Program-made: the position numbers and the translations under genes
The notes under the pieces: generated by a model
What the model saw: only the letters and a program-made list of their open reading frames with translations
Database searches by the model: none
Told to the model about the DNA's origin: nothing
Shown here: positions 340 to 21,900 of the stretch, piece by piece
How positions within the stretch are numbered: position 1 is the stretch's first letter
Layout: each line of letters begins with the position of its first letter
Source of the DNA: a virus
Length of the DNA stretch: 30,070 nucleotides
Direction: 5' to 3' (one strand)
IMG/VR virus record: IMGVR_UViG_3300022749_000065
Span: 1-30,070 of that record

Positions 340-946
340 TGCCCCCTCCCTGCTCCTTCAGCCCGGCGTCGCGCGCCCGGTTCAGATCCGCCATCATGTC
401 GTGAGATCCGCCCGGCCGGTCCGGATGACGCTCGCGAGCGAGGCGCCTGAATGCTGCCTCGATCTCCTGGACGCTCGCACTCGGCTGCACGGCCAGCACC
501 TGCCACCAAGGCGTCGAGCCCGGCGCTGGCAGGGCCTGGAAGCCCGCGAACATCTCGGCTGCAGTCGCCACACCGAGTCGCTCGATCTTGCGCGTCGCTT
601 CGATGTGCGCGGCCAGAGCGGCGATGTTGTCTGCCACGCGCATGTACGTGTCGCAGGCGAGCACATGCGGCTTGCTAGACAGGCTGAAATAGAGGGCGAC
701 GCCTGGATCGTTGGGCTCGCCCCGGCCCGATCGCGGCAGGCCGTCCAGCCGCAGTTCAACGTTCGTGCTCAGCACCACCGATCCGGCCCGCAGGAGGTCC
801 ACCTCCATCTGCAGGCGCTCGCGGGCGTCAGCCACGGTGAGCTCGACGCGGTAGCCGCGCGGCCCCTGCTTGCCGAACGGGGCGGCCTTGCGCAGCCGCC
901 TGCGGGGGCGACCCTGCGGCCACTGGAGCGGGTAGGCCTGGGTCAC
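329..946 (-). CDS. J-domain (DnaJ-like) phage protein
   Basis: A 205-residue protein whose last 60 residues form a J-domain-like segment: WWQVLAV at about 147, the helix EIEAAFRRLARERHPD with the diagnostic HPD tripeptide at about 174-176, then a final helix. J-domains stimulate the ATPase of Hsp70/DnaK. The N-terminal 145 residues are not recognised. The domain is at the C-terminus rather than the usual N-terminus, and there is no G/F region or zinc centre, so this is not DnaJ itself. The GTG start at 946 overlaps the stop of the DUF1643 gene and has AAGGAAGG about seven bases upstream, so it is preferred to the GTG at 964. Recruitment of host DnaK to phage recombination or replication complexes is inference. 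Confidence 0.75.
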   Translation of the reverse strand: MTQAYPLQWPQGRPRRRLRKAAPFGKQGPRGYRVELTVADARERLQMEVDLLRAGSVVLSTNVELRLDGLPRSGRGEPNDPGVALYFSLSSKPHVLACDTYMRVADNIAALAAHIEATRKIERLGVATAAEMFAGFQALPAPGSTPWWQVLAVQPSASVQEIEAAFRRLARERHPDRPGGSHDMMADLNRARDAGLKEQGGGSAA

Positions 947-1548
947 CGGGCACCTTCCTTCCACAGCACCGGCTGAGCATGATCAGGGATGCGCGAGCGG
1001 CCCCGCGCCATTGGGTGCATCGGTGCCCCCTCGGCGGTCAGCCCGAAGCAGTGGACATCGGGCCAAGGCGCCTCGCCGGTGGTGATCTCCTCGAGCACCT
1101 GGTCGACGAACTCGGGATCCCACGCGCCAGCGCCCCAGCAGGCCACCGCCAGCGCGGCCGCCTTCGCCTCGCGCACGAGGACCGGCAGGTTGCCGAAGTG
1201 GATCACGTCGCGCGCGTGCCAGTCCGGGCCGTTGTCCATGAAGTCCGCCCAAGCACGGCACTCGACCGGCGACGAGGTGCGCAGCGGATAGAGATTGACC
1301 GCGGTGAACCCGCCGTAGCCCCACGACCGGGCGAAGTGGATCCAGCGGCGCACCGTCGGATCGTCCTGCCGGTGGTCGGCGGTGCTCGGGTTGAGGCCGA
1401 TGAAGCAGACGTGCCCGCCCTCGCTCGACCAGGTGCGAGTCAGCGTGAAACGGTAGGCGCCGCACCGGGACAGGTTGACCGAGCGGGCGATGGTGTCGGC
1501 GAAGGGCACGCCGAAGAGGTCGCGGGTGGCGAGGGCGGCGGCGGTCAT
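943..1548 (-). CDS. DUF1643 domain-containing protein
   Basis: A 201-residue protein matching the DUF1643 family. Hallmarks are YRFTLTRTW near the N-terminus, then GHVCFIGLNPSTAD, the segment DPTVRRWIHFARSWGYGGF, and AVNLYPLRT. The C-terminus keeps the pattern VACWGAGA. The biochemical role of DUF1643 is not known; it is common in phages and near DNA-modification genes. The ATG at 1548 overlaps the TGA of the preceding gene (ATGA), which excludes the longer upstream extension of this frame. It lies in the distal part of the leftward early operon. Confidence 0.85.
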   Translation of the reverse strand: MTAAALATRDLFGVPFADTIARSVNLSRCGAYRFTLTRTWSSEGGHVCFIGLNPSTADHRQDDPTVRRWIHFARSWGYGGFTAVNLYPLRTSSPVECRAWADFMDNGPDWHARDVIHFGNLPVLVREAKAAALAVACWGAGAWDPEFVDQVLEEITTGEAPWPDVHCFGLTAEGAPMHPMARGRSRIPDHAQPVLWKEGAR

Positions 1549-1910
1549 CGGCGGGCCCCCATACTGGCAGCGGCCTGCCGGCACCCGACGTCGAGCAACG
1601 CAAGGCGGACGGCGGTCCAGTAGTCGTCGGTGGCGGTGCGACGCTCCAGGGCGGCGCGAAACTCGGCCGGCACGACAGGGTGCATGAACATCGCATTCTG
1701 CGCCTCGGCGTAGAGGATCTCGCGCCGCGGCTCTTGGCGGATGACCACGCGCTGCCGGTGGCCCCGCCAGTGACGCCGGGCCGCTCGCGAGGGGGATCGG
1801 CACTGCGACCAATCCCAAACCGTATCCGTCGGCATAGCGTCGCTGGCGAAGATGCGGATGGTGCCGAGCCCGGGCGGACCCAGGAGGAGGCTGTCGCGGA
1901 CCGCGCTCAT
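1545..1910 (-). CDS. Hypothetical early protein, 121 aa
   Basis: I do not recognise this protein. It has a polar N-terminal half containing DTVWDWSQC, a basic stretch rich in Arg, and a helical C-terminal half (PAEFRAALERRTATDDYWTAVRLALLDVGC). No signal peptide or membrane segment is seen. The start at 1910 is chosen because its ATG overlaps the TGA of the DUF4326 gene, and its own stop overlaps the start of DUF1643 in the same ATGA fashion. It is therefore coupled on both sides. A longer in-frame extension upstream lies inside the DUF4326 gene and is rejected. Confidence 0.65.
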   Translation of the reverse strand: MSAVRDSLLLGPPGLGTIRIFASDAMPTDTVWDWSQCRSPSRAARRHWRGHRQRVVIRQEPRREILYAEAQNAMFMHPVVPAEFRAALERRTATDDYWTAVRLALLDVGCRQAAASMGARR

Positions 1911-2428
1911 GCCGCCCCCGCGATGTCGAGCGCGTCGGCCGGGGCGGCTTCGCACCGGAGATTGGCCAAGCGCAGAAGCACGTCGGCGTGGCATGGGGCG
2001 TCGAGAGCGCACCAACACGCGAGGTTCTTGCCGCGCAGGCACGCGATCCGGTCGGCGCTCGGCGGGCGCCGCCCGACCTCAGCGACCAGTCCACCGGCAA
2101 GCCACTCTTCGAACCATCGGACGGCAATGACGTGCGCCGTCTCATCCTTGCTGTGCAGACCTGCATCCTTCGTGTCGGCGAGGTAGGCGCGGGCATCGGA
2201 CAGCGGGAACGGATTACCGTAGACGCTGGGCCGCGACACGACGACGGCAGGCAAGCCGTTGAGCGCGCGGCTTGCGGCCTGCAGATCTGCGCCCGGTGCC
2301 CGGGACAAGCGCATGCGGACGGGCTGGATCACCGTTCCACCTCCGTTCGGCGCCTCGGCCGCCGATCGGTCCGATACTGGACCTACTTTGCCGCCGGTTG
2401 CCGCGGTGTTCTGGTTGACGGGGCTCAT
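1907..2428 (-). CDS. DUF4326 domain-containing protein
   Basis: A 173-residue protein with the DUF4326 signature. The core starts near residue 38 (VRMRLSRAPG), continues with PAVVVSRPSVYGNPFPL, and ends with the conserved cysteine motif LRGKNLACWCALDAPCHADVL near residues 132-152. The family is widespread in phages and its function is unknown. The Cys-Trp-Cys/Pro-Cys-His arrangement suggests a bound metal or a reactive cysteine. The first 35 residues (rich in T, G and A) are poorly conserved in appearance, so a later start just before the core is possible. The downstream neighbour is coupled by ATGA. The start overlaps the stop of a leftward frame that now carries antisense plus-strand genes. 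Confidence 0.8.
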   Translation of the reverse strand: MSPVNQNTAATGGKVGPVSDRSAAEAPNGGGTVIQPVRMRLSRAPGADLQAASRALNGLPAVVVSRPSVYGNPFPLSDARAYLADTKDAGLHSKDETAHVIAVRWFEEWLAGGLVAEVGRRPPSADRIACLRGKNLACWCALDAPCHADVLLRLANLRCEAAPADALDIAGAA

Positions 2429-2628
2429 CGGGCGCCTCCCGTCGCGAAGGCCGTGCGCCCTCCTGTCAACAGACGGAATACTGTCGATAATCGCACATAG
2501 CAGCCAAATTTCTGTGCATAATCAATACTCACATGTCCCTTAACACGGGGGTACGCAGTTCGGAATGTTGCGTGCGTTCCGACATCTGCGACCTTCCGGA
2601 AGGCTAAGTAGATGCGGATCAGGGAAAG

Positions 2629-2952
2629 ATGGCAAATGATCTGCCGGACGATCCTTCCTTCGAAGACGGATTGTCTTCGGCCGCAGCACAGGAGGCAAAC
2701 GGGATCGCTTTTCTGCTTTCCAGCGCGGCGTATCTCATGCTTGCAGAGGCCTACCTGCGATGCGAGGGTCAGCGCGGGCTTGCCTTGATGGATGAGATCG
2801 AAAGCAGGATTGCAGAAGCGACAGAGAGCTTCTTGGCCGAACACCCCGACGTGGTCGCGAATCCAGAAATTATCTCGCGCGCAGCGCAGAAGATCCGCGA
2901 GCTGTTGGATGCGGGCCGTAACCTGCTTCCCGGGACAACCTTCCGGCACTGA
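2629..2952 (+). CDS. Hypothetical helical protein, 107 aa (plus-strand cargo)
   Basis: Not recognised. The protein is acidic and almost entirely helical in appearance (AYLMLAEAYLRCEGQRGLALMDEIESRIAEATESFLAEH), ending with a helix IISRAAQKIRELLDAG. No membrane segment or catalytic motif is seen. The ATG has AGGGA five bases upstream. The 150 bases in front are AT-richer than the surroundings and contain a perfect 12-bp palindrome CCTTCCGGAAGG at 2592-2603, so the gene seems to have its own promoter and perhaps operator. Codon choice is RNY-like but less GC-biased than the backbone, which suggests acquisition. It lies antisense to the leftward operon. It shares a general plan with the gene at 3207 and could be a distant paralogue. 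Confidence 0.6.
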   Translation: MANDLPDDPSFEDGLSSAAAQEANGIAFLLSSAAYLMLAEAYLRCEGQRGLALMDEIESRIAEATESFLAEHPDVVANPEIISRAAQKIRELLDAGRNLLPGTTFRH

Positions 2953-3206
2953 CAGGACCTGCCCGTAAGAATGGCACGCTGCGCCGGCCTCGATCATCTC
3001 ACGCGTGATGGTGCGGGACTCAGCCATGGGGCAACTCCGCGGCTTCGATGATCGGATGGTGGTGAAACCAATGACCAGCGGTTCCGGCGCGTCACGCCGA
3101 ATGACAGCGGTCAATAAGCTGTTGCAGCGCGGTATTTGCGTCATCGACCACACGCCGAGGCGCTGATAACAATGCCCGCTATTGATTCGGCTCTATAGCG
3201 ACGACA

Positions 3207-3512
3207 ATGTCTTCTAAACCGCAGGCAAATACGCTGGCCGGCTTGACCCTTGCCTTCGAGATGATGGGCCGAGCCTATGAGGCGTTGGCTCTGCTCAACG
3301 AAATGCATCGCCCTGGTGAATACGCAGATCACGGTCGCAAGATTAAAGAATACATCGCCGACAACTTTCGCCACGTCGAAGCGGCTTTGACGGAAGACGC
3401 AGCAGGCGTCAGTTCTTTCCGCGAAGCTGTACTTATTGTGCGCGAGGTGTTCGATCGTGTTGATGCCGAAGTGCTCGCAACCCAATCCGCCTTCCAACGT
3501 ACGCAGAGGTAG
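3207..3512 (+). CDS. Hypothetical helical protein, 101 aa (plus-strand cargo)
   Basis: Not recognised. It begins MSSKPQANTLAGLTLAFEMM, followed by helices containing YEALALLNEMHRPGEYADHG and KIKEYIADNFRHVEAALTED, and a final helix VLIVREVFDRVDAEVLATQ. It is soluble, without cysteines or a signal peptide. No convincing Shine-Dalgarno is seen before the ATG (upstream ACGACA), so the start is less certain. Base composition is lower in GC than that of the flanking phage genes. Like its neighbours at 2629 and 3680 it runs against the leftward early operon, with which it shares no regulatory signals that I can see. Confidence 0.58.
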   Translation: MSSKPQANTLAGLTLAFEMMGRAYEALALLNEMHRPGEYADHGRKIKEYIADNFRHVEAALTEDAAGVSSFREAVLIVREVFDRVDAEVLATQSAFQRTQR

Positions 3513-3679
3513 ACCGTCAGGCTCATGCGAGCCGCGGAGGATCGGTGCGGGCGCGTTCATGCCGCCGCTCCCAAGTTCGAGAACGGGACCGGTGCCCTGC
3601 AAATGATGTCGCGAACTTGTGTGTTCTGAGCCTGTTTGTTGCGGCCTAACCTTCTGGGCGACCGACCAGAACACTGTCT

Positions 3680-3880
3680 ATGGCCTGCACCGATGAAGAC
3701 GCACCGTGGCTGGATCCCCTCGACGAGTTGGCGCTGGCAAAGGGCCTCATCGCACGCAAGGAGCGAGGAGAGCCGGTAGATGGCGACATCCTGGTGCTGC
3801 TGGACGACCTGGAGCGGGTGAGGCTGACTGATACGGAGGCCTACAGGGTGCTCGACGCACACAGGCCTCAGAAGCCGTAG
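3680..3880 (+). CDS. Hypothetical small acidic protein, 66 aa (plus-strand cargo)
   Basis: Not recognised. The protein is short and acidic, with two amphipathic helices (LDPLDELALAKGLIARKER and GDILVLLDDLERVRLTDTEAYRVLDAH). This is the sort of composition seen in small DNA-mimic or regulatory proteins, but no family can be named. A split dyad GTGTTCTG (3621-3628) and CAGAACAC (3667-3674) brackets the 40 bases before the ATG and could be an operator. No clear Shine-Dalgarno is present. It is the third plus-strand gene nested in the leftward operon. Confidence 0.5.
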   Translation: MACTDEDAPWLDPLDELALAKGLIARKERGEPVDGDILVLLDDLERVRLTDTEAYRVLDAHRPQKP

Positions 3881-3933
3881 GCTGCCGAGTGTTTCCCGGC
3901 CGTCCGCCAAGACGTCGATGTGAGCGCGCACCG

Positions 3934-4464
3934 TCATGCCGCCGCTCCCTCGCCGCTCGCCGGGGCGGAGGCGCGCCGCTTGCGACCGCTCGGCTTCCGG
4001 CCATCGCCGTACTTCGCCCAGTCGCGGATCTCGCTGTACGAGACACCCTTAAGCGCGGCCCAAGCCTCGCGGCACTGTTCAAGCGTGAACATGGCCGTGT
4101 GGCAGGTCTCGCGGGTGAGCCCCATGCGGGCGGCGAGGAAGCCGTAGACGCGGCCGCGGGCGGCGCGCTGGACCTGCTTGATGCCGTCAGTGTCCAGGCG
4201 GCCGTAGCCACCTGACACGGGCGCGTTCTTCCAGAGCGGGTCGATCCTGCGGTGATGCAGAAGGATCCGCGCCTCGCGAAGCGCGGCGTCAGCCGGGAAT
4301 CCGAGTGGATCCTCAGTGCCGGGGTGACAGCCGACGTACGTGTCCCCGCAGAACGTGCAGGCCCAGATCGGCTTGTCCGCGAGGTCGGGCCGGTGCGGGT
4401 AGATCTCGCGGCCGTCCGTGAGGCGGGCGGTGGTCTCGCAGATCGGGCAGATCGGGGCTGCCAT
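3934..4464 (-). CDS. DUF3268 zinc-finger-containing phage protein
   Basis: A 176-residue protein with the DUF3268 layout. There is an N-terminal CPIC pair (C6, C9), WACTFCG (C36, C39), then YVGCHPGTEDPLGFPAD, which is the family's most conserved stretch. A basic helical domain follows: FDPLW-like DPLWKN, the GRVYGFLAARMGL segment and CHTAMFTLEQCREAW. The four N-terminal cysteines should bind zinc. The family is common in phage early regions and probably contacts nucleic acid, but its function is unknown. The C-terminus is a basic, low-complexity tail (KPSGRKRRASAPAS). The gene follows the 226-aa recombination-associated gene after a 2-base gap. Confidence 0.82.
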   Translation of the reverse strand: MAAPICPICETTARLTDGREIYPHRPDLADKPIWACTFCGDTYVGCHPGTEDPLGFPADAALREARILLHHRRIDPLWKNAPVSGGYGRLDTDGIKQVQRAARGRVYGFLAARMGLTRETCHTAMFTLEQCREAWAALKGVSYSEIRDWAKYGDGRKPSGRKRRASAPASGEGAAA

Positions 4465-4466
4465 GG

Positions 4467-5147
4467 TCAGGCTGCCTCCTCGGCGGGCGGCGCGAAACCG
4501 GGGAATCCATCGTCGTCGGCGACGTCCGCGCGGGCGGTGATCCGCTCCAGCTCGTCGGCGATGTCGTCGAGGGCGCGGTCGGCCCGCGGGTCGAGCTGGT
4601 CGCGGAAAGCGCGGAGAGCGTCGCTGCCCTTCGCGGCTTCGGCCCGGGCAGCGGCGTACAGGCGCTCGCGTGGGCCCGGCAGACGAGGTGCCTCCTGCTG
4701 GTCGCCGGCAGGGGCGGCATCGTCCTTCCGTTTCTCCGGCGGCGGGGCACGCTCCTCGGCCAGCGGCTTGACCGTGAATGCCCGGCGGACGGCCTTCGTG
4801 ACCGTAAGCGGCATCGTCACGGCGCTCGTGATGCCGGACATGTGGCTGATCCGGATGCCGCCGACCGCCACGCCGCCGAACTGCACGGCGTCATCGCGGT
4901 AGAGCGTCATCCGGCGCCCGGCGTAGGTCGACGCGTCGCTGCCCCAGATCCGCAGGAGCACGCGGCGCATCGACTTGCCGGGCTTGTAGGGCTTGCCGTT
5001 GTCGCCTTCGAAGTAGATCGCGATCGGCTGATCCGGCTCCTTCATGGCGGAAACGCGCGTGACCTTGATCGTGCGCGGGCCACCGATCAGGTCGTCGGCG
5101 TTGAGCTGGTCGCTCTTCGGCGCGACCGTCTGCGAGATGTCGATCAC
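4467..5147 (-). CDS. Recombination-module protein of unknown function (possible ssDNA-binding or annealing partner)
   Basis: A 226-residue protein. The N-terminal 130 residues are beta-rich: MIDISQTVAPKSDQLNADDL, PRTIKVTRV, QPIAIYFEGDNGKPYKPGKSMRRVLLRIWG, then YAGRRMTLYRDD and GGIRISHMSG. The rest is a charged, Pro/Ala-rich and helical tail ending in acidic residues and PPAEEAA. I recall this N-terminal pattern from many alphaproteobacterial phages, where it is unnamed. A beta-rich core with an acidic tail next to a YqaJ exonuclease is the plan expected of an SSB-like or strand-annealing partner; that role is inference. The ATG overlaps the exonuclease stop (ATGA). No recognisable RecT, Bet or Erf gene exists elsewhere in the operon. 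Confidence 0.72.
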   Translation of the reverse strand: MIDISQTVAPKSDQLNADDLIGGPRTIKVTRVSAMKEPDQPIAIYFEGDNGKPYKPGKSMRRVLLRIWGSDASTYAGRRMTLYRDDAVQFGGVAVGGIRISHMSGITSAVTMPLTVTKAVRRAFTVKPLAEERAPPPEKRKDDAAPAGDQQEAPRLPGPRERLYAAARAEAAKGSDALRAFRDQLDPRADRALDDIADELERITARADVADDDGFPGFAPPAEEAA

Positions 5148-5872
5148 GCTGCGATCTCCCTGGGAATGCGCTTCGTGGGGACGGCGCGAGCGGAGGCGAT
5201 CACCTCGCTGTAGCGGTCCATCGCTTCCCTGATGCGGCGCTCGAAGTCGCCGGCCGCCTCGACGATCGCCTGCTGGATCTTCTCGTCCGGGTAGGCGCGG
5301 ATCCGGGCGAGCGGCAGCCCGCCGGAATACGAGACGAGGTCACACCAGGATCGCTCGGAGACGAGGAGGCCGGTCTGGATCTGGAGCAGGTAATCGGTCG
5401 GGATCGTCTGCTCGACGACGTGCACCAGGAAGGTCTCGACCTGGTACTTCTGCCGGCGCGACTTGCACTCCACGAGGCCGTCGCTGCCGACCAGCGCGTC
5501 CGGCGAGTAGCCGAGCGTGAAGCCCCAGCGGTCGTTGGTGATGAAGCCGACGGTCTCGGTCTCGGCGTAGTGCCGCGCGTAGAGGGTAAGCGCCTCGATC
5601 TCGTCGTCCTGCCCGCGCAGCATGTCGTCGCTGACGTAGCGGGGCTCGACGAAGCCGGTGATCCGCTGAGCGAGCAGCTCGTACAGGTGCGAGCGCTCCT
5701 TCTCGTTCTTGGCCGCCTTGAAGGTCGGCGTCAGGATCAGCGACATCTCGCTGGCGGTGAGCATCCCACAGCGGGCCGCGATCCACTCGTCCGTGCCCTG
5801 GTAGAGGTCGGCGTGGATGCGCACCGTGGACGGGCGCTCGATGGTGTCGGGGGCGAGCAGAGCCATGGTCAC
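5144..5872 (-). CDS. YqaJ-like viral recombinase (lambda-type exonuclease)
   Basis: A 242-residue PD-(D/E)XK nuclease of the YqaJ family, which degrades one strand of linear duplex DNA to give single strands for annealing. Visible motifs are WIAARCGMLTASE near residues 30-42 (the conserved R-x-G-x-[ILV]-T/S-A-S segment), an acidic helix at 88-95 (GQDDEIEA), the catalytic D125 in GYSPDALVG, and E135/K137 in LVECKSRR. The helical segment TDYLLQIQTGLLVSERSWCDLVSY carries the family's QIQ motif. The length is typical. The start overlaps the preceding stop, and ATG codons at 5872 and 5866 are both possible. Its probable partner is the next gene downstream. Confidence 0.9.
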   Translation of the reverse strand: MTMALLAPDTIERPSTVRIHADLYQGTDEWIAARCGMLTASEMSLILTPTFKAAKNEKERSHLYELLAQRITGFVEPRYVSDDMLRGQDDEIEALTLYARHYAETETVGFITNDRWGFTLGYSPDALVGSDGLVECKSRRQKYQVETFLVHVVEQTIPTDYLLQIQTGLLVSERSWCDLVSYSGGLPLARIRAYPDEKIQQAIVEAAGDFERRIREAMDRYSEVIASARAVPTKRIPREIAA

Positions 5873-6168
5873 GCCTCCGCCGGCGCGGGCTGACCGGCGA
5901 CGCCAAGCCCAGCGTTGATCGCGGCGGCGAGCATCTCGGCCCGCTCGCGATCCAGGCTCGCGGAGCCGGCCGGGATGAGCAGCGCGAACACCGTCCCATC
6001 AGCATCGGCGAGACCGTGCAGGGTGCTCTCGCAGGCCCGGACGGGCGGTCGAACCCCGAAAAAGGTCGCGCGCTGGGCGGGCGTCACGGCGCGGGGCTCG
6101 CGCATCTCGAAGGGGAGAACGGAGCGGGTCATCACGGCCTCGGTCTGGGAGAAGGGTTCGAGGGTCAC
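5869..6168 (-). CDS. Hypothetical early protein, 99 aa
   Basis: Not recognised. The protein begins VTLEPFSQTEAVMTRSVLPFEMREPRA and ends with a helix RERAEMLAAAINAGLGV. The middle contains a short beta-like stretch (ADGTVFALLIPAGSAS) and two cysteine- and arginine-containing turns. The GTG at 6168 overlaps the previous stop (GTGA) and is preferred. An ATG at 6132 is the alternative and would give an 87-residue product. The longer upstream extension of this frame lies in another gene. It is coupled to the exonuclease downstream. Confidence 0.65.
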   Translation of the reverse strand: MTLEPFSQTEAVMTRSVLPFEMREPRAVTPAQRATFFGVRPPVRACESTLHGLADADGTVFALLIPAGSASLDRERAEMLAAAINAGLGVAGQPAPAEA

Positions 6169-6413
6169 TGCGGCCTCCCCTGGTCGGGTTGGCGGAACAG
6201 GTGAGCGCGCCGCGCCACCATCTCCGGCAGGCCTTCGACGGCGAGGGCGGTGATCGTCGAGGAGGCGACCGGGTCGCCCCTCGTTACGGCCGCGATCGTC
6301 GTCGCGAGGGCGGCCGTCATGATGTGCGTGAGCGTTGCGCTCTCCGTGACGCCGTGCGTGCGCGCGGCCTCGTCGACACACAGCGCGTAAAGCCGGCTCT
6401 CGAAGTCGCTCAT
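6165..6413 (-). CDS. Hypothetical early protein, 82 aa
   Basis: Not recognised. A small helical protein: SDFESRLYALCVDEAARTHG, then an Ala/Thr-rich helix (LTHIMTAALATTIAAVT), then a polar C-terminus with a basic end. The hydrophobic stretch is short and interrupted, so a membrane location is not supported. The ATG overlaps the stop of the upstream 109-aa gene and its stop overlaps the next GTG, so it is coupled on both sides. It sits in a run of four small proteins typical of phage early operons. Confidence 0.65.
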   Translation of the reverse strand: MSDFESRLYALCVDEAARTHGVTESATLTHIMTAALATTIAAVTRGDPVASSTITALAVEGLPEMVARRAHLFRQPDQGRPQ

Positions 6414-6739
6414 CGCGCACCCGCCAGCTTCGCGGTGAGGCGGCCGGCCGAGATCTCGACCTTCTGGTGGATCTCCGCGAGGCGGGTGGAGACGCGCTGC
6501 AGCTTCTCCAGGTCGTAGCCCTGACCGGCGCCGCGCCCGGTGGCACGCTCGACGTGCCAGGCCAACATGCCCAGCGACTCCAGCAGGCTATCGAGGCCGG
6601 AGAGGCCGGCGCTCAACTCGCCGTCGGCGTGGTGGCGCTCGTAGGAGCTGACCGGCTCGGCCGGCGCCAGAGCGTCGAGGCTCGGCGCGACGCCGACGAG
6701 ATGGCCATGCAGGGCGCGGATCGGGTGCGGCGCGTTCAT
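6410..6739 (-). CDS. Hypothetical early protein, 109 aa
   Basis: Not recognised. After an extended N-terminus (MNAPHPIRALHGHL) the protein is helical: LSGLDSLLESLGMLAWHVERATG, then YDLEKLQRVSTRLAEIHQKVEISAGRLTAKL, which looks like a coiled-coil hairpin. Its first codons resemble those of the leftward frame that starts at 3560 (MNAPAPILRG), so the two may be old duplicates. It is coupled by ATGA overlaps to both neighbours. Confidence 0.65.
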   Translation of the reverse strand: MNAPHPIRALHGHLVGVAPSLDALAPAEPVSSYERHHADGELSAGLSGLDSLLESLGMLAWHVERATGRGAGQGYDLEKLQRVSTRLAEIHQKVEISAGRLTAKLAGAR

Positions 6740-6954
6740 GCTGCCTCGCGGAACTGGTCGGCTTCGAAATCCGCGATGGCGGCCAGCTCGTCGGCGGCCT
6801 CCAGCGCGAGGGGATCGGCGTGATCCTGGCAGGCGAAGATCGCCTCGGCCTCGCAGTCGCAGTCGTCGCGGATCAGGCCGTAGGGGCTGTGCGCGGCGTA
6901 GCCGGTGGGGGTGCGCGTGAAGCGGTAGCCGGCGGGAAGGTCGAGGAGCGCCAT
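6736..6954 (-). CDS. Hypothetical small acidic protein, 72 aa
   Basis: Not recognised. The N-terminal half looks like a small beta-sheet (LPAGYRFTRTPTGYAAHSPYGLIRDD). The C-terminal half is an acidic helix (LALEAADELAAIADFEADQF), with two cysteines at the junction (DDCDCEAEAIFACQDH). The strong negative charge could suit a protein that binds another protein rather than DNA. The start lies two bases after the stop of the XRE regulator gene. Its stop overlaps the next ATG. Confidence 0.62.
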   Translation of the reverse strand: MALLDLPAGYRFTRTPTGYAAHSPYGLIRDDCDCEAEAIFACQDHADPLALEAADELAAIADFEADQFREAA

Positions 6955-6956
6955 GG

Positions 6957-7202
6957 TCAGGCAGCCTCCGCGTTGGAGACTTCGTCGAAGAAGGCCGCGA
7001 TCGGCGCGCCGGTCAGATCGGCGACGATGTTCAGCGCGATGGCGCTGATGCGGTTCGTGCCCTTCTCGTACTTCTGGAGCTGGGCGGCCGAGACGCCGAT
7101 CGCGGCGCCTATGGCGCGCTGGGTCAGTCCCGCCCGTGTCCGGGCAGCCCAGATGCGTTCGCCGATGCGGACATCGACTTCGGTAGCGGGAAGGCCGGCC
7201 AT
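6957..7202 (-). CDS. XRE-family helix-turn-helix regulator (Cro/CI type)
   Basis: An 81-residue protein that is essentially one HTH_3 domain: RIGERIWAARTRAGLTQRAIGAAIGVSAAQLQKYEKGTNRISA, with the recognition helix in SAAQLQKYEKG at about residues 38-48. There is no C-terminal oligomerisation or protease domain. It is the third gene of the leftward operon, so it is made only when the leftward promoter is active. It may modulate the early promoters or a host gene. A second Cro-like gene lies to the right of the repressor, so calling this one Cro would be a guess. The ATG follows the stop of the 30-aa membrane peptide by one base. Confidence 0.82.
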   Translation of the reverse strand: MAGLPATEVDVRIGERIWAARTRAGLTQRAIGAAIGVSAAQLQKYEKGTNRISAIALNIVADLTGAPIAAFFDEVSNAEAA

Positions 7203-7715: not shown

Positions 7716-7973
7716 GTGCCAAGCCTCACCTATTTCGTCGTTCAACCCTTCTGCGATGCTGGGAGAGGGCGCATCGCTCCAGGGGAGCCGCGACAGGTAC
7801 CATCACGACGGGAAGCAGAGCGGATTGTGGAAACGCTTCGCGGTGGCCTCGCCGGTGCGGTGGCCTTCTCGCGAACAGGAGATCCCGTCGAGGGAGATTG
7901 GGCGGACGCTGAGATCATCGCCAAGAATGGCGCCGTGCCGCTGGAGTTCTTGGAGGCAACGCTTCCGTGGTAG
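7716..7973 (+). CDS. Hypothetical immunity-region protein, 85 aa
   Basis: Not assigned a function. The protein starts MPSLTYFVVQPFCDAGRGRI, then carries SRREAERIVETLRGGLAGAVAFSRTGDP and ends AEIIAKNGAVPLEFLEATLPW. I have the impression of a small protein family common in Methylobacterium genomes, but cannot name it. The GTG start is supported by GGAGGT five bases upstream. It lies between the leftward promoter and the repressor, oriented away from the former and towards the latter. It could therefore be expressed in the lysogen. It overlaps the start of the next gene (GTGGTAG). Confidence 0.65.
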   Translation: MPSLTYFVVQPFCDAGRGRIAPGEPRQVPSRREAERIVETLRGGLAGAVAFSRTGDPVEGDWADAEIIAKNGAVPLEFLEATLPW

Positions 7974-8239
7974 CTGCAAAGAGAAAGCCCGTTGATCCCC
8001 GCTTATCTACTCCACTCACCTCCGCCCCTTCTGTCCGCGTTCAATGTGATGACTGCGGTCACATGGGCTACTTGGATGCTGAACGGCTCAGGGACCTGTC
8101 TGAGGCAGGATGCGTCACGTTCGGTGACCTTGGACGGCGTCTAAAGTGTCACGACTGCTACGCAGCTGGAGGCTTAGGAAAGAGCATATCGCTCGAAGCT
8201 GTCGGTGGCGATCCTACACGTATAGCGAGCCGACGATGA
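7967..8239 (+). CDS. Zinc-ribbon-like protein, 90 aa
   Basis: A small protein with two CxxC pairs, CDDC (residues 27-30) and CHDC (61-64), separated by a helical segment (LDAERLRDLSEAGCVTFGDLGRRL). This is the plan of a treble-clef or zinc-ribbon domain. The N-terminus is Pro- and Ser-rich and basic. The GTG start overlaps the stop of the preceding gene, so the two are probably co-translated. Its last 26 bases overlap the 3' end of the convergent repressor gene. A function cannot be assigned; a DNA or protein adaptor is plausible. Confidence 0.65.
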   Translation: MVAAKRKPVDPRLSTPLTSAPSVRVQCDDCGHMGYLDAERLRDLSEAGCVTFGDLGRRLKCHDCYAAGGLGKSISLEAVGGDPTRIASRR

Positions 8240-8897
8240 CGTGGACAGATTTTACCAAACTTCGATGCAGCTCGATCTCTTCGGCCGGATTGTGCTGCCA
8301 GAGTACTAGCTTCGTCGGCGTGAACTTGATGAATTCCTTTATGTAGCCCTCCGGTGCTTCGCCATCGATCTTAGGGTGTAGCTGGACGACGACATCGTCG
8401 CCCTGGCGCGGCGGTCGGTGAGGATGCACCCAGACTTTCTCACCGGGTTTGAAGCGTGGCCGCATGCTGTCGCCCACCACGTACGTGGCATAGGCCTCGT
8501 CGACGTTCTCAAGCTGAGGCGGCCGGGGAATCGTCTCGATCACCTGGCCGTTATAGACGAGCTTGCCGTCGTCGCCGCCGCGAGAGACGCCGAGCACGTC
8601 CAGCGGCGGCCCGTAGGAGGGTGCCGGCTCACGACGTGAAGCGTTCGGCTTCATCGTCACGGTTGCGCTGCCCCTCGCTTCAACCGGTCCGGACTCGACC
8701 GCGCCGAGCAGCCACTCGTTCGATTTGCCGAGCTCGGCTGCGACTTTGAACAGGTTCTCCAGCTTGCCGCGCCCGCGTTTGAGCGCGTCGCGGACGTAGG
8801 TCTCTCCCAGGCCGGCTGCCAAGGACAGCTCCTTCATCTCGCGGCCCTGCTCCAGCATCTCGCTTTCCAGGCGGCGTCGAACTGCATTCTCGATCAT
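8214..8897 (-). CDS. CI/LexA-like phage repressor with S24 domain
   Basis: A 227-residue repressor. Residues 5-65 form a helix-turn-helix (MKELSLAAGLGETYVRDALKRGRGKLENLFKVAAELG). Residues 100-227 form the S24 serine-protease/dimerisation fold, with the nucleophile S144 in VVGDSMRPRFKPGE and the probable general base K187 in GYIKEFIKF. No clear Ala-Gly or Cys-Gly cleavage pair is visible in the linker, where RGGDDG occurs instead, so RecA-dependent self-cleavage is uncertain. The frame stays open to 8963, but that stretch contains the operators. The ATG at 8897 fits the usual N-terminus of the family. It should repress both early promoters through the GGGCA-N2-TGCCC sites. Confidence 0.88.
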   Translation of the reverse strand: MIENAVRRRLESEMLEQGREMKELSLAAGLGETYVRDALKRGRGKLENLFKVAAELGKSNEWLLGAVESGPVEARGSATVTMKPNASRREPAPSYGPPLDVLGVSRGGDDGKLVYNGQVIETIPRPPQLENVDEAYATYVVGDSMRPRFKPGEKVWVHPHRPPRQGDDVVVQLHPKIDGEAPEGYIKEFIKFTPTKLVLWQHNPAEEIELHRSLVKSVHVIVGSLYV

Positions 8898-19455: not shown

Positions 19456-20406
19456 ATGCGCGAACTGTACGAGCATCTGCGAGATGGTGGAGAGCGAGCC
19501 ATTGAAGCTCTGCGTGAAAATCGTATGGAGGAGGATCTTCAGCTCGAATTCAAGACTAAATCATCGGCTGATAGATACGGATTGAGCGACGACGATAAAA
19601 AATCTTTCGGGGAATGTTTGTCCGGGTTTAGTAATTCTGCGGGCGGTCTTTTGATATTTGGAGTGCTTTGCAGGAAAGGAGAGGACGGGGTCGACTGCGT
19701 CCAAAGTTTGCACCCGATCATTGAGATTGATCGGCATGCCTCAGATTTGCGCAGCATGCTTGGCGGTTTTCTGCAGCCCGGGAATGATGGGATCGAGATA
19801 TCTGTAGTTCAATCGGAAGCGTCGCCTGGATCTGGCTACCTACTCATGCTGGTGCCCCGGTCTGAACGCAGACCACATCAATCCAGAGTAAAGGGGCATT
19901 TTCGCTATTACAAAAGGATCGGAAGAGATTTCCATCCTATGGAACATTATGACGTTGAAGATGCGTTTAGTAGAAATTCCTTGGCCGACTTACACATTGA
20001 GCTGGCAAATCATGGATATGCACGGAGCGGAGTGTTTGAATTCCGTGTTGGCCTCAATCTCAGAAACGATGCCATCGTGACTGCGAAGTACCCTTTTGTC
20101 AAAATTGGCAATCTATCTAATATTAGTCTGATGCAGGTTATGAAAGGCCATTCAGGCATAGAGGCCGTATATGCCAATGGAAGTGCCGCTGCGGTTGGAG
20201 GCGCCGATCAGGTGGTGCACAGTGCTATCCCACTTAATATGCTTACCTTGCGTATATTTGCGACCCAGGCGGATGGCGGTTGGCTGATTGACGGAGTTCC
20301 TGCTGATGAAGTGCAGATCGGATTTGATTACGCAGTGGGATGTGAAAATGGGCTTGTGAAAGAGGGAAGGTTTACGCAGCCTGCTCGCGACTTCCTCATC
20401 GCTTGA
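19456..20406 (+). CDS. Schlafen/AlbA_2-domain protein (accessory)
   Basis: A 316-residue protein with an AlbA_2 (Schlafen-like) domain in its N-terminal half. Evidence is LQLEFKTKSS near residues 28-37, the Asp/Lys-rich helix DDDKKSFGECLSGFSNSAGGLLIFGV at 45-70, and a later FRYYKRIGRDFHPMEHYDVED at 148-168. The family covers predicted nucleic-acid-binding or nuclease-like proteins, several in defence contexts. The C-terminal half (about 175-316) is a beta-rich domain that I do not recognise. GGGAGG lies six bases before the ATG. GC content is lower than in the phage backbone and a terminator-like hairpin follows, so it looks like a self-contained cargo gene. A defence or superinfection role is inference. 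Confidence 0.8.
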   Translation: MRELYEHLRDGGERAIEALRENRMEEDLQLEFKTKSSADRYGLSDDDKKSFGECLSGFSNSAGGLLIFGVLCRKGEDGVDCVQSLHPIIEIDRHASDLRSMLGGFLQPGNDGIEISVVQSEASPGSGYLLMLVPRSERRPHQSRVKGHFRYYKRIGRDFHPMEHYDVEDAFSRNSLADLHIELANHGYARSGVFEFRVGLNLRNDAIVTAKYPFVKIGNLSNISLMQVMKGHSGIEAVYANGSAAAVGGADQVVHSAIPLNMLTLRIFATQADGGWLIDGVPADEVQIGFDYAVGCENGLVKEGRFTQPARDFLIA

Positions 20407-21048: not shown

Positions 21049-21900
21049 GTGGTTTCGGGCTCACGTCGTGTGGGCCGCCAGCGGGCCCGGAATAAAATCC
21101 AGACCGACACGAAGGCAGCCAGCGCCGTCCGGGCGCTCGGGTACCTGCGGGTCTCCACGGAAGAGCAGGCCGCGACCGGCCACGGGCTTGAGGCGCAGGA
21201 GAAGGCGGTCCGCGCCTTCGCCGAGAGCCAGGGCTACGAGCTGATCGAGGTCCTCACCGACCCGGGTGTATCGGGCGCAACCCGGCCCGCCGATCGCCCC
21301 GCCTTCGGGCAGGCGCTGGAGTTCGCCGCGGCCAAGGCCTTCGACGTGCTGCTGGTGGCGAAGATCGACCGGCTGTCTCGCGATATCCGCCACGCGATGA
21401 CGACGGTCTCAGATCTCGCCGAGCAGCACGAGGTGGCGTTCCGGTCGGTCACGGAATCGGTGATCGACACGTCCAACCCGATGGGTCGGACCTTCTTCGC
21501 GATCTTCGCCGGCATGGCGGAGAACGAGCGGTTCGTGATCCGGGACCGGACTGCCAGCGGCCGAGTGGCCAAGGCCGGCAAGGGCGGCTTTGCCGGAGGC
21601 AAGGCGCCCTACGGTTACACCAAGGATCTGGAAGGCGGCCTCCGGGTCGTCCCGGAGCAGGCGCGCATTGTGCGCCGGATCTACCAGGAGCGCCGCCGCA
21701 AGCGGACGCTCCAGGCTATCGCCGACGGCTTGAACGCCGAGGGCATCCCGGCGCCGAAGGGCGGCCGCTGGGCCGTCTCCACGGTCGCGTACGTGACCGA
21801 CAACCCGAAATATCGCGGCGCGATCGAGTACCTGTTCCGCTGGAAGGGGACCGAGACGCACGTCCTGCAGCCGGGCGCCCACGCCGCGATCATCGGCTGA
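21049..21900 (+). CDS. Serine recombinase (resolvase plus Recombinase domains), short form
   Basis: A 283-residue serine recombinase. The catalytic domain begins VRALGYLRVSTEEQAATGHGLEAQ with nucleophile S36, followed by DPGVSGATRPADRPAF and AKIDRLSRDIRHAM (family arginines) and TFFAIFAGMAENERFVIRDRT. A Recombinase (PF07508-type) DNA-binding domain follows: GGKAPYGYTKD, VPEQARIVRRIYQERRRKRTLQAIADGLNAEGI, then YVTDNPKYRGAIEYLF. The protein ends there, without the zinc ribbon and coiled coil of large serine integrases (usually 450-550 residues). The GTG at 21049 has AGAGG seven bases upstream and is preferred to the TTG at 21043. The phage also has a tyrosine integrase, so this enzyme is probably an invertase, resolvase or cargo mobility gene. 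Confidence 0.9.
   Translation: MVSGSRRVGRQRARNKIQTDTKAASAVRALGYLRVSTEEQAATGHGLEAQEKAVRAFAESQGYELIEVLTDPGVSGATRPADRPAFGQALEFAAAKAFDVLLVAKIDRLSRDIRHAMTTVSDLAEQHEVAFRSVTESVIDTSNPMGRTFFAIFAGMAENERFVIRDRTASGRVAKAGKGGFAGGKAPYGYTKDLEGGLRVVPEQARIVRRIYQERRRKRTLQAIADGLNAEGIPAPKGGRWAVSTVAYVTDNPKYRGAIEYLFRWKGTETHVLQPGAHAAIIG

Follow-up and report, generated by a model that had tools for sequence, protein, structure and literature searches.

Why should the early operon of a temperate phage, with its genes coupled through overlapping stop and start codons, remain open to reading across three successive intervals that each hold a gene on the opposite strand? The locus that raises this question lies in a 30,070-bp IMG/VR virus record, analysed here over its whole length (the window). 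The closest relatives of this virus are prophages found on bacterial contigs, some of them from Methylobacterium; among isolated phages, DNA matches to the whole window are weak and partial only. The leftward early operon (943-7202) comprises DUF3268, cargo, DUF4326 and DUF1643 genes with tight overlaps, and its relevant features are the following, where a bridge ORF is a leftward frame that runs across cargo lying on the other strand:

943-1548, minus strand: DUF1643 gene (PF07799, E 5.7e-30), in the same operon as the cargo hotspot
1907-2428, minus strand: DUF4326 gene (PF14216, E 1.2e-14), the first leftward gene past the cargo
2425-3144, minus strand: bridge ORF C, stop-free across g1 together with its upstream DNA, ending in ...FATGGAR
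2463-2491, plus strand: possible, weak sigma-70-like promoter upstream of g1 (9/12 matches; 0.4 expected by chance)
2629-2952, plus strand: g1, antisense cargo gene of 107 aa, with 83% amino-acid identity to the copy in L002, the nearest phage
3141-3560, minus strand: bridge ORF B, open over g2; its start (MNAPAPILRGS...) is the remnant of a PAPS-reductase-like gene
3207-3512, plus strand: g2, antisense cargo gene of 101 aa, with homologs in 26/111 genomes of the genus
3557-3937, minus strand: bridge ORF A, open over g3, with ATGA at both ends
3680-3880, plus strand: g3, antisense cargo gene of 66 aa, with homologs in 12/111 genomes of the genus
3934-4464, minus strand: DUF3268 zinc-finger-containing gene (PF11672, E 1.9e-19; 8 viral relatives), upstream flank of hotspot 1

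The four ATGA junctions described in the initial annotation are exact, each leftward ORF opening in an ATGA and closing within that of the next cistron, and each bridge is indeed overlain by a single plus-strand gene of lower GC content (0.59, 0.55 and 0.64 for g1, g2 and g3, the operon on either side being at about 0.70). All three genes are codon-aligned (phase 0) with the ORF that overlies them. The upstream dyad attributed to each gene was not recovered, no inverted repeat of at least 10 nt being found, and the scan that gave the single sigma-70-like match listed above showed no terminator signal above background. Elsewhere in the window, an 85-aa plus-strand gene (7716-7973) sits between a repressor-like gene (8214-8897, minus strand) and the leftward operon, and its relatives occupy the same position in several phages and are never bridged; a 316-aa plus-strand gene (19456-20406), AlbA_2/Schlafen-like by eye, adjoins a serine-recombinase-like gene (21070-21900).

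Comparison with five relatives (L092, L105, L169, L002 and L107) bears out the earlier view of this site as a cargo hotspot within a coupled leftward operon, with the three antisense genes as independent acquisitions. In L105 and L169 the stop of the DUF3268-like gene overlaps the start of the PAPS gene directly, with coupling and no cargo in between, and other phages carry TM genes (L002, L007, L011, L104), PilZ (L107) or DUF4145 (L155) at the site. Intact leftward genes are found in L092, where a PAPS-reductase-like gene (3601-4743, PF01507) has the same start as bridge B and a 66-aa gene (5345-5545; MAESSTI...ATGGARG) matches bridge C in the start at 3027 and the end at 2425, bridge C from 3027 being a remnant of this MAESSTI gene. 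Bridges homologous to C occur in L002, L084 and L154. The leftward frames are not relics, and the idea that the operon once ran through here is wrong or unproven: no frame is broken between its two junctions, either here or in relatives. They match displaced phage genes only at their ends.

Many alphaproteobacterial prophages show the same arrangement with unrelated cargo (PilZ, HicBA, DUF4145 and a family with two TM segments), their hosts beyond the genus (Rhizobiales and other alphaproteobacteria) being assigned from protein content and GC. Bridges may span several cargo genes (554 codons in L007, 560 in L208, 529 in L215 and 525 in L206), and several run in a phase other than 0; gaps with no bridge also exist (L104 9267-10057, L170 8232-8604, L205 and L223). 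HicBA-type toxin-antitoxin pairs were seen nested antisense in open operon-strand frames at L115 2808-3485, L117 3780-4484 and L206 2850-3470. The two-TM family, which is uncharacterised and carries an invariant C-x-E-[FY]-W-x-N-R-Y-Q, is present at dozens of prophage loci (e.g. L007 7226-8083, L002 6549-7397, L206-L222 and L245-L258), almost always nested antisense in operons, and gave no match against 50,697 phage records; the member in L205 immediately precedes a terminase-like gene.

That g1-g3 are real genes follows from a six-frame search of 111 genomes of the same genus, in 12 to 26 of which their families stand alone. Homologs of g1 occur in 21 of the 111, the best at 50-64% identity and a few at about 30%, many of them stand-alone on the chromosome. 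Those of g2 (mostly 31-43%) usually form two tandem copies and at some loci adjoin UDP-glucose dehydrogenase; none was found in viral contigs. Homologs of g3 (53-69%) are in part chromosomal and in part antisense in prophages L089, L091 and L092; in L089 a DUF1643 gene (5366-5989) lies directly downstream of the g3 homolog, and in L215 a g3 relative is nested beside a TM gene. An 89-aa antisense gene in L089 (4288-4557) is a distant relative of g1 (E 0.001), making the g1 family broader than its close copies. The proposed anti-phage or anti-defence role finds no support in the searches made: g1-g3 matched no family in Pfam, PHROGs or NCBIfam, and nothing significant emerged from PADLOC for them or for seven other cargo proteins, the best value for g1-g3 being that of g3 (E 0.045). 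The g1 model consists of three helices at a pLDDT of 67 and had no PDB match better than E 0.58, so that no function was inferred.

The explanation that we favour, and hold to be probable, is that cargo lies within a bridge ORF which has the shape of a cistron, contains no stop and lets translation and coupling of the operon continue past the cargo. The site is a hotspot of a temperate phage, with host-type genes placed antisense to a leftward early operon whose cistrons are tightly coupled. Each bridge takes over where the preceding phage gene stops, most often with ATGA or GTGA, reads stop-free across the cargo and its promoter-like DNA, and ends where the following phage gene begins. During lytic transcription, ribosomes finishing the upstream gene would reinitiate at the bridge and translate it, so that the nascent RNA would stay covered, Rho termination would be averted and translation would be passed on to the next gene. 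Cargo breaking the bridge would be polar on essential lytic genes and would then be lost, and antisense placement would allow cargo to be expressed in the lysogen with the lytic genes staying off. Being shaped like an ordinary ATGA-to-ATGA cistron, such a cassette could thus be swapped between phages and positions. That phages can also escape polarity through antitermination counts against this model, as do the gaps with no bridge. The bridge architecture, its recurrence and the selection of openness independently of amino acids are well supported by the comparisons below; the anti-polarity role we infer, in keeping with the general principle that translation shields RNA from Rho (PMC5021804).

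Ribosome occupancy might instead be selected on other grounds than Rho and coupling, for instance against pairing with cargo mRNA or against RNase attack on the antisense RNA. Ribosome protection has been proposed for the similar reverse ORFs of narnaviruses (PMC8316113), but the bridges studied here reach from one junction to the other and have ATGA or GTGA at their ends, an arrangement suggestive of coupling to the gene that follows. This second explanation is unlikely, if the least unlikely of the rivals.

A lower probability still, amounting to an outside chance, attaches to true dual coding, in which each leftward ORF would encode a selected protein of its own. Its appeal is that the frames run full length, start as phage genes do, and share their first and last codons with intact phage genes. 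What favours the bridge explanation instead is seen at g1, where the bridges of the window, L002, L084 and L154, which share one insertion in the MAESSTI gene, are all stop-free over 200-202 codons, and about 70 of these codons lie in AT-rich, non-cargo DNA in which some 50-60% of sites differ between distant pairs. Gaps are of 3 or 6 nt only in the multiple alignment and in 5/6 pairwise alignments, those of 1, 17 and 18 nt between the window and L084 resembling alignment ambiguity. When a fixed segment of about 600 nt (the cargo with 200 nt upstream and 75 nt downstream) is considered, no stop interrupts the opposite frame in 5/5 phage copies of g1, against 2/20 chromosomal copies; g2 and g3 bridges end sooner, and the fixed segment was therefore applied to g1 only. 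What is conserved on the leftward strand is the lack of stops and the frame. Its product, on the other hand, diverges faster than the cargo (63% identity against 83% for the plus-strand protein between the window and L002; 0.12-0.32 against 0.23-0.53 in TM pairs), and changes outside the cargo fall evenly on the three bridge codon positions (0.38/0.32/0.43 between L084 and L154, about 0.6 in most distant pairs); within the g1 cargo, it is the third cargo codon position that varies most. Amino-acid constraint was thus seen on the cargo strand only, and the initial suggestion of a two-strand coding region fails in the sense of dual protein coding. An operon strand that stays stop-free with no protein conservation suggests that ribosomes must traverse the cargo for the operon to function.

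It could also be argued that the leftward ORFs are meaningless chance shadows, given that TTA, CTA and TCA are rare in GC-rich DNA and that the codon-aligned antisense frame is therefore usually open there. All three frames in the window, and most others, are in phase 0, and a short GC-rich gene can leave the frame open by itself: taken singly, the three intervals of the window have probabilities of being open of 0.44 (the g3 interval), 0.059 and 0.002. These values come from synonymous recoding of the cargo and dinucleotide shuffling of the remainder. For the sets of gaps that follow, the null likewise recoded the cargo, using codon weights matched to its GC content, and shuffled dinucleotides elsewhere, while junction-proximal DNA was kept fixed. 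A gap counted as bridged, in real and null sequences alike, when ORFs whose starts were coupled followed one another all the way between the stop of the upstream gene and the start of the downstream one. Among 30 curated early-operon gaps, a list partly assembled via open frames, in which a script drew some of the cargo sets from the gene map and the null held no cargo gene fixed for one interval (PilZ in L091), 28 are crossed by a coupled ORF or ORF chain against 5.5±1.9 expected. Since openness had entered into that list, two further sets were gathered by protein alone, through the motif or the profile of the TM family. Viral contigs searched with the TM-family motif E[FY]W[FLV]NRYQ gave 19/21 bridged loci against 2.9±1.5 expected, counting L224 as bridged on weak grounds (four short ORFs), and further Methylobacterium genomes gave 13/13 against 0.7±0.8, most bridges starting with ATGA or GTGA, with one locus lacking a flank and with L256, identical to L219 in gap length, cargo and bridge, possibly the same prophage. 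The protein family of both TM sets is also that of part of the curated loci, and L104 and L216 are one contig; what the two sets add is therefore further loci, not a type of cargo that is entirely new. Many loci are related, and the bridging counts are hence not independent.

It is this comparison across many phages that is decisive for openness beyond chance. In a contrast set from the same phages, antisense genes between the repressor and the operon start were bridged in 0/8 cases. Gene calls in this work came from a home-made caller, which at g1 chose wrongly between bridge and cargo. Our initial survey of gaps, made with it, found an open frame and a coupled start in 15/52 phage gaps versus 1/46 chromosomal gaps; it was too loose, because ORF chains were missed and shadow genes miscalled, and conservation-based gene sets with the chain test were used instead. 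A listing that started from bridges sums to a log10 P of -24, but is ascertained and thus not our main statistic.

The composition of the cargo genes is in agreement with these counts. TTA, CTA and TCA are the complements of the stop codons, and g1-g3 contain none of them. Across 33 nested TM genes (8,472 codons, GC 0.52), TTA and TCA are absent and CTA appears once, in L156 and probably upstream of the true start, while TTG (180), CTT (192), TCT (111), ATA (130) and GCA (280) are all in use. Seven further family members that were not picked for openness have zero TTA, CTA or TCA, against a total of 26 among the 656 codons of three unbridged members. At L205, L223 and L224, TM-family loci with no proper bridge, there are 7-11 such codons each. 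As a sole cause, chance shadowing is refuted by the far smaller number of bridges that the GC-matched recoding null yields in all three sets, by TM genes of only 43-55% GC with antisense frames open over 279-406 codons, by the chromosomal copies of g1, most of which are not open, and by the several bridges in another phase; we give it very little credence. Equally improbable is overprinting, whereby cargo born de novo antisense to old phage genes would face frames open with no selection: the TM family is nested antisense at nearly every locus found and bridge ends match phage genes, but g1, g2 and g3 have stand-alone chromosomal homologs, PilZ, HicBA and DUF4145 are ancient families, and outside the cargo the frames have stayed open although the DNA has diverged by about 60%.

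Extending the bridge explanation, we put forward, with marginally less assurance than for the bridges themselves, that an ambigrammatic cassette is in general use among alphaproteobacterial prophages: coupled lytic operons would admit a foreign gene antisense only where their own strand forms a content-free, stop-free ORF that hands ribosomes on between successive phage genes. One DNA strand would then be selected purely for translatability. An antisense gene devoid of TTA, CTA and TCA within a junction-to-junction ORF would provide a sequence signature for prophage cargo, and such genes are likely to be miscalled by annotation pipelines, since either bridge or cargo can be wrongly chosen. It also becomes testable whether phage operons not of the lambda type need unbroken translation, instead of antitermination, for their long early transcripts.

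A search of the openly accessible journal literature yielded no earlier description of this phage bridge architecture, but several known systems share part of it. Phage hotspots of antiviral systems likewise place variable cargo between conserved phage genes (PMC9122126); the abstract of that description mentions neither antisense orientation nor a bridge ORF, and here g1-g3 and the seven other cargo proteins had no significant PADLOC match. Morons and other lysogenic-conversion cargo (PMC7067206) are extra genes of different GC, absent from the same site in relatives and presumably expressed in the lysogen. The present cargo resembles them in that L105 and L169 are empty at the site and other phages carry other cargo, and in its GC content (0.55-0.64 against about 0.70) and chromosomal homologs; it differs from them in lying antisense within a stop-free operon-strand ORF coupled at both ends. 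In Pseudomonas phage Fc02, a forward gene expressed in the lysogen (olg1) overlaps a reverse-strand gene of the lytic operon (gene 10), and both show superinfection exclusion (PMC9936078). Fc02 is a single case in which both proteins are functional, whereas the operon-strand protein here is unconstrained and the pattern widespread. A further parallel is found in ambigrammatic narnaviruses, RNA viruses with both strands of a whole segment open, in which a long reverse ORF nearly covers the coding strand and a stop within it is harmful (PMC8316113, PMC8155312). Here too a codon-aligned reverse frame is open through exclusion of TTA, CTA and TCA, with some bridges in another phase. A DNA prophage nevertheless falls outside that group of RNA viruses, and, unlike narnaviruses, it presents a cassette that carries unrelated cargo and is joined by ATGA coupling to the other genes of a polycistronic operon. 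Such cassettes would be to DNA what ambigrammatic viruses are to RNA, a case in which selection apparently acts on the act of translation and not on its product.
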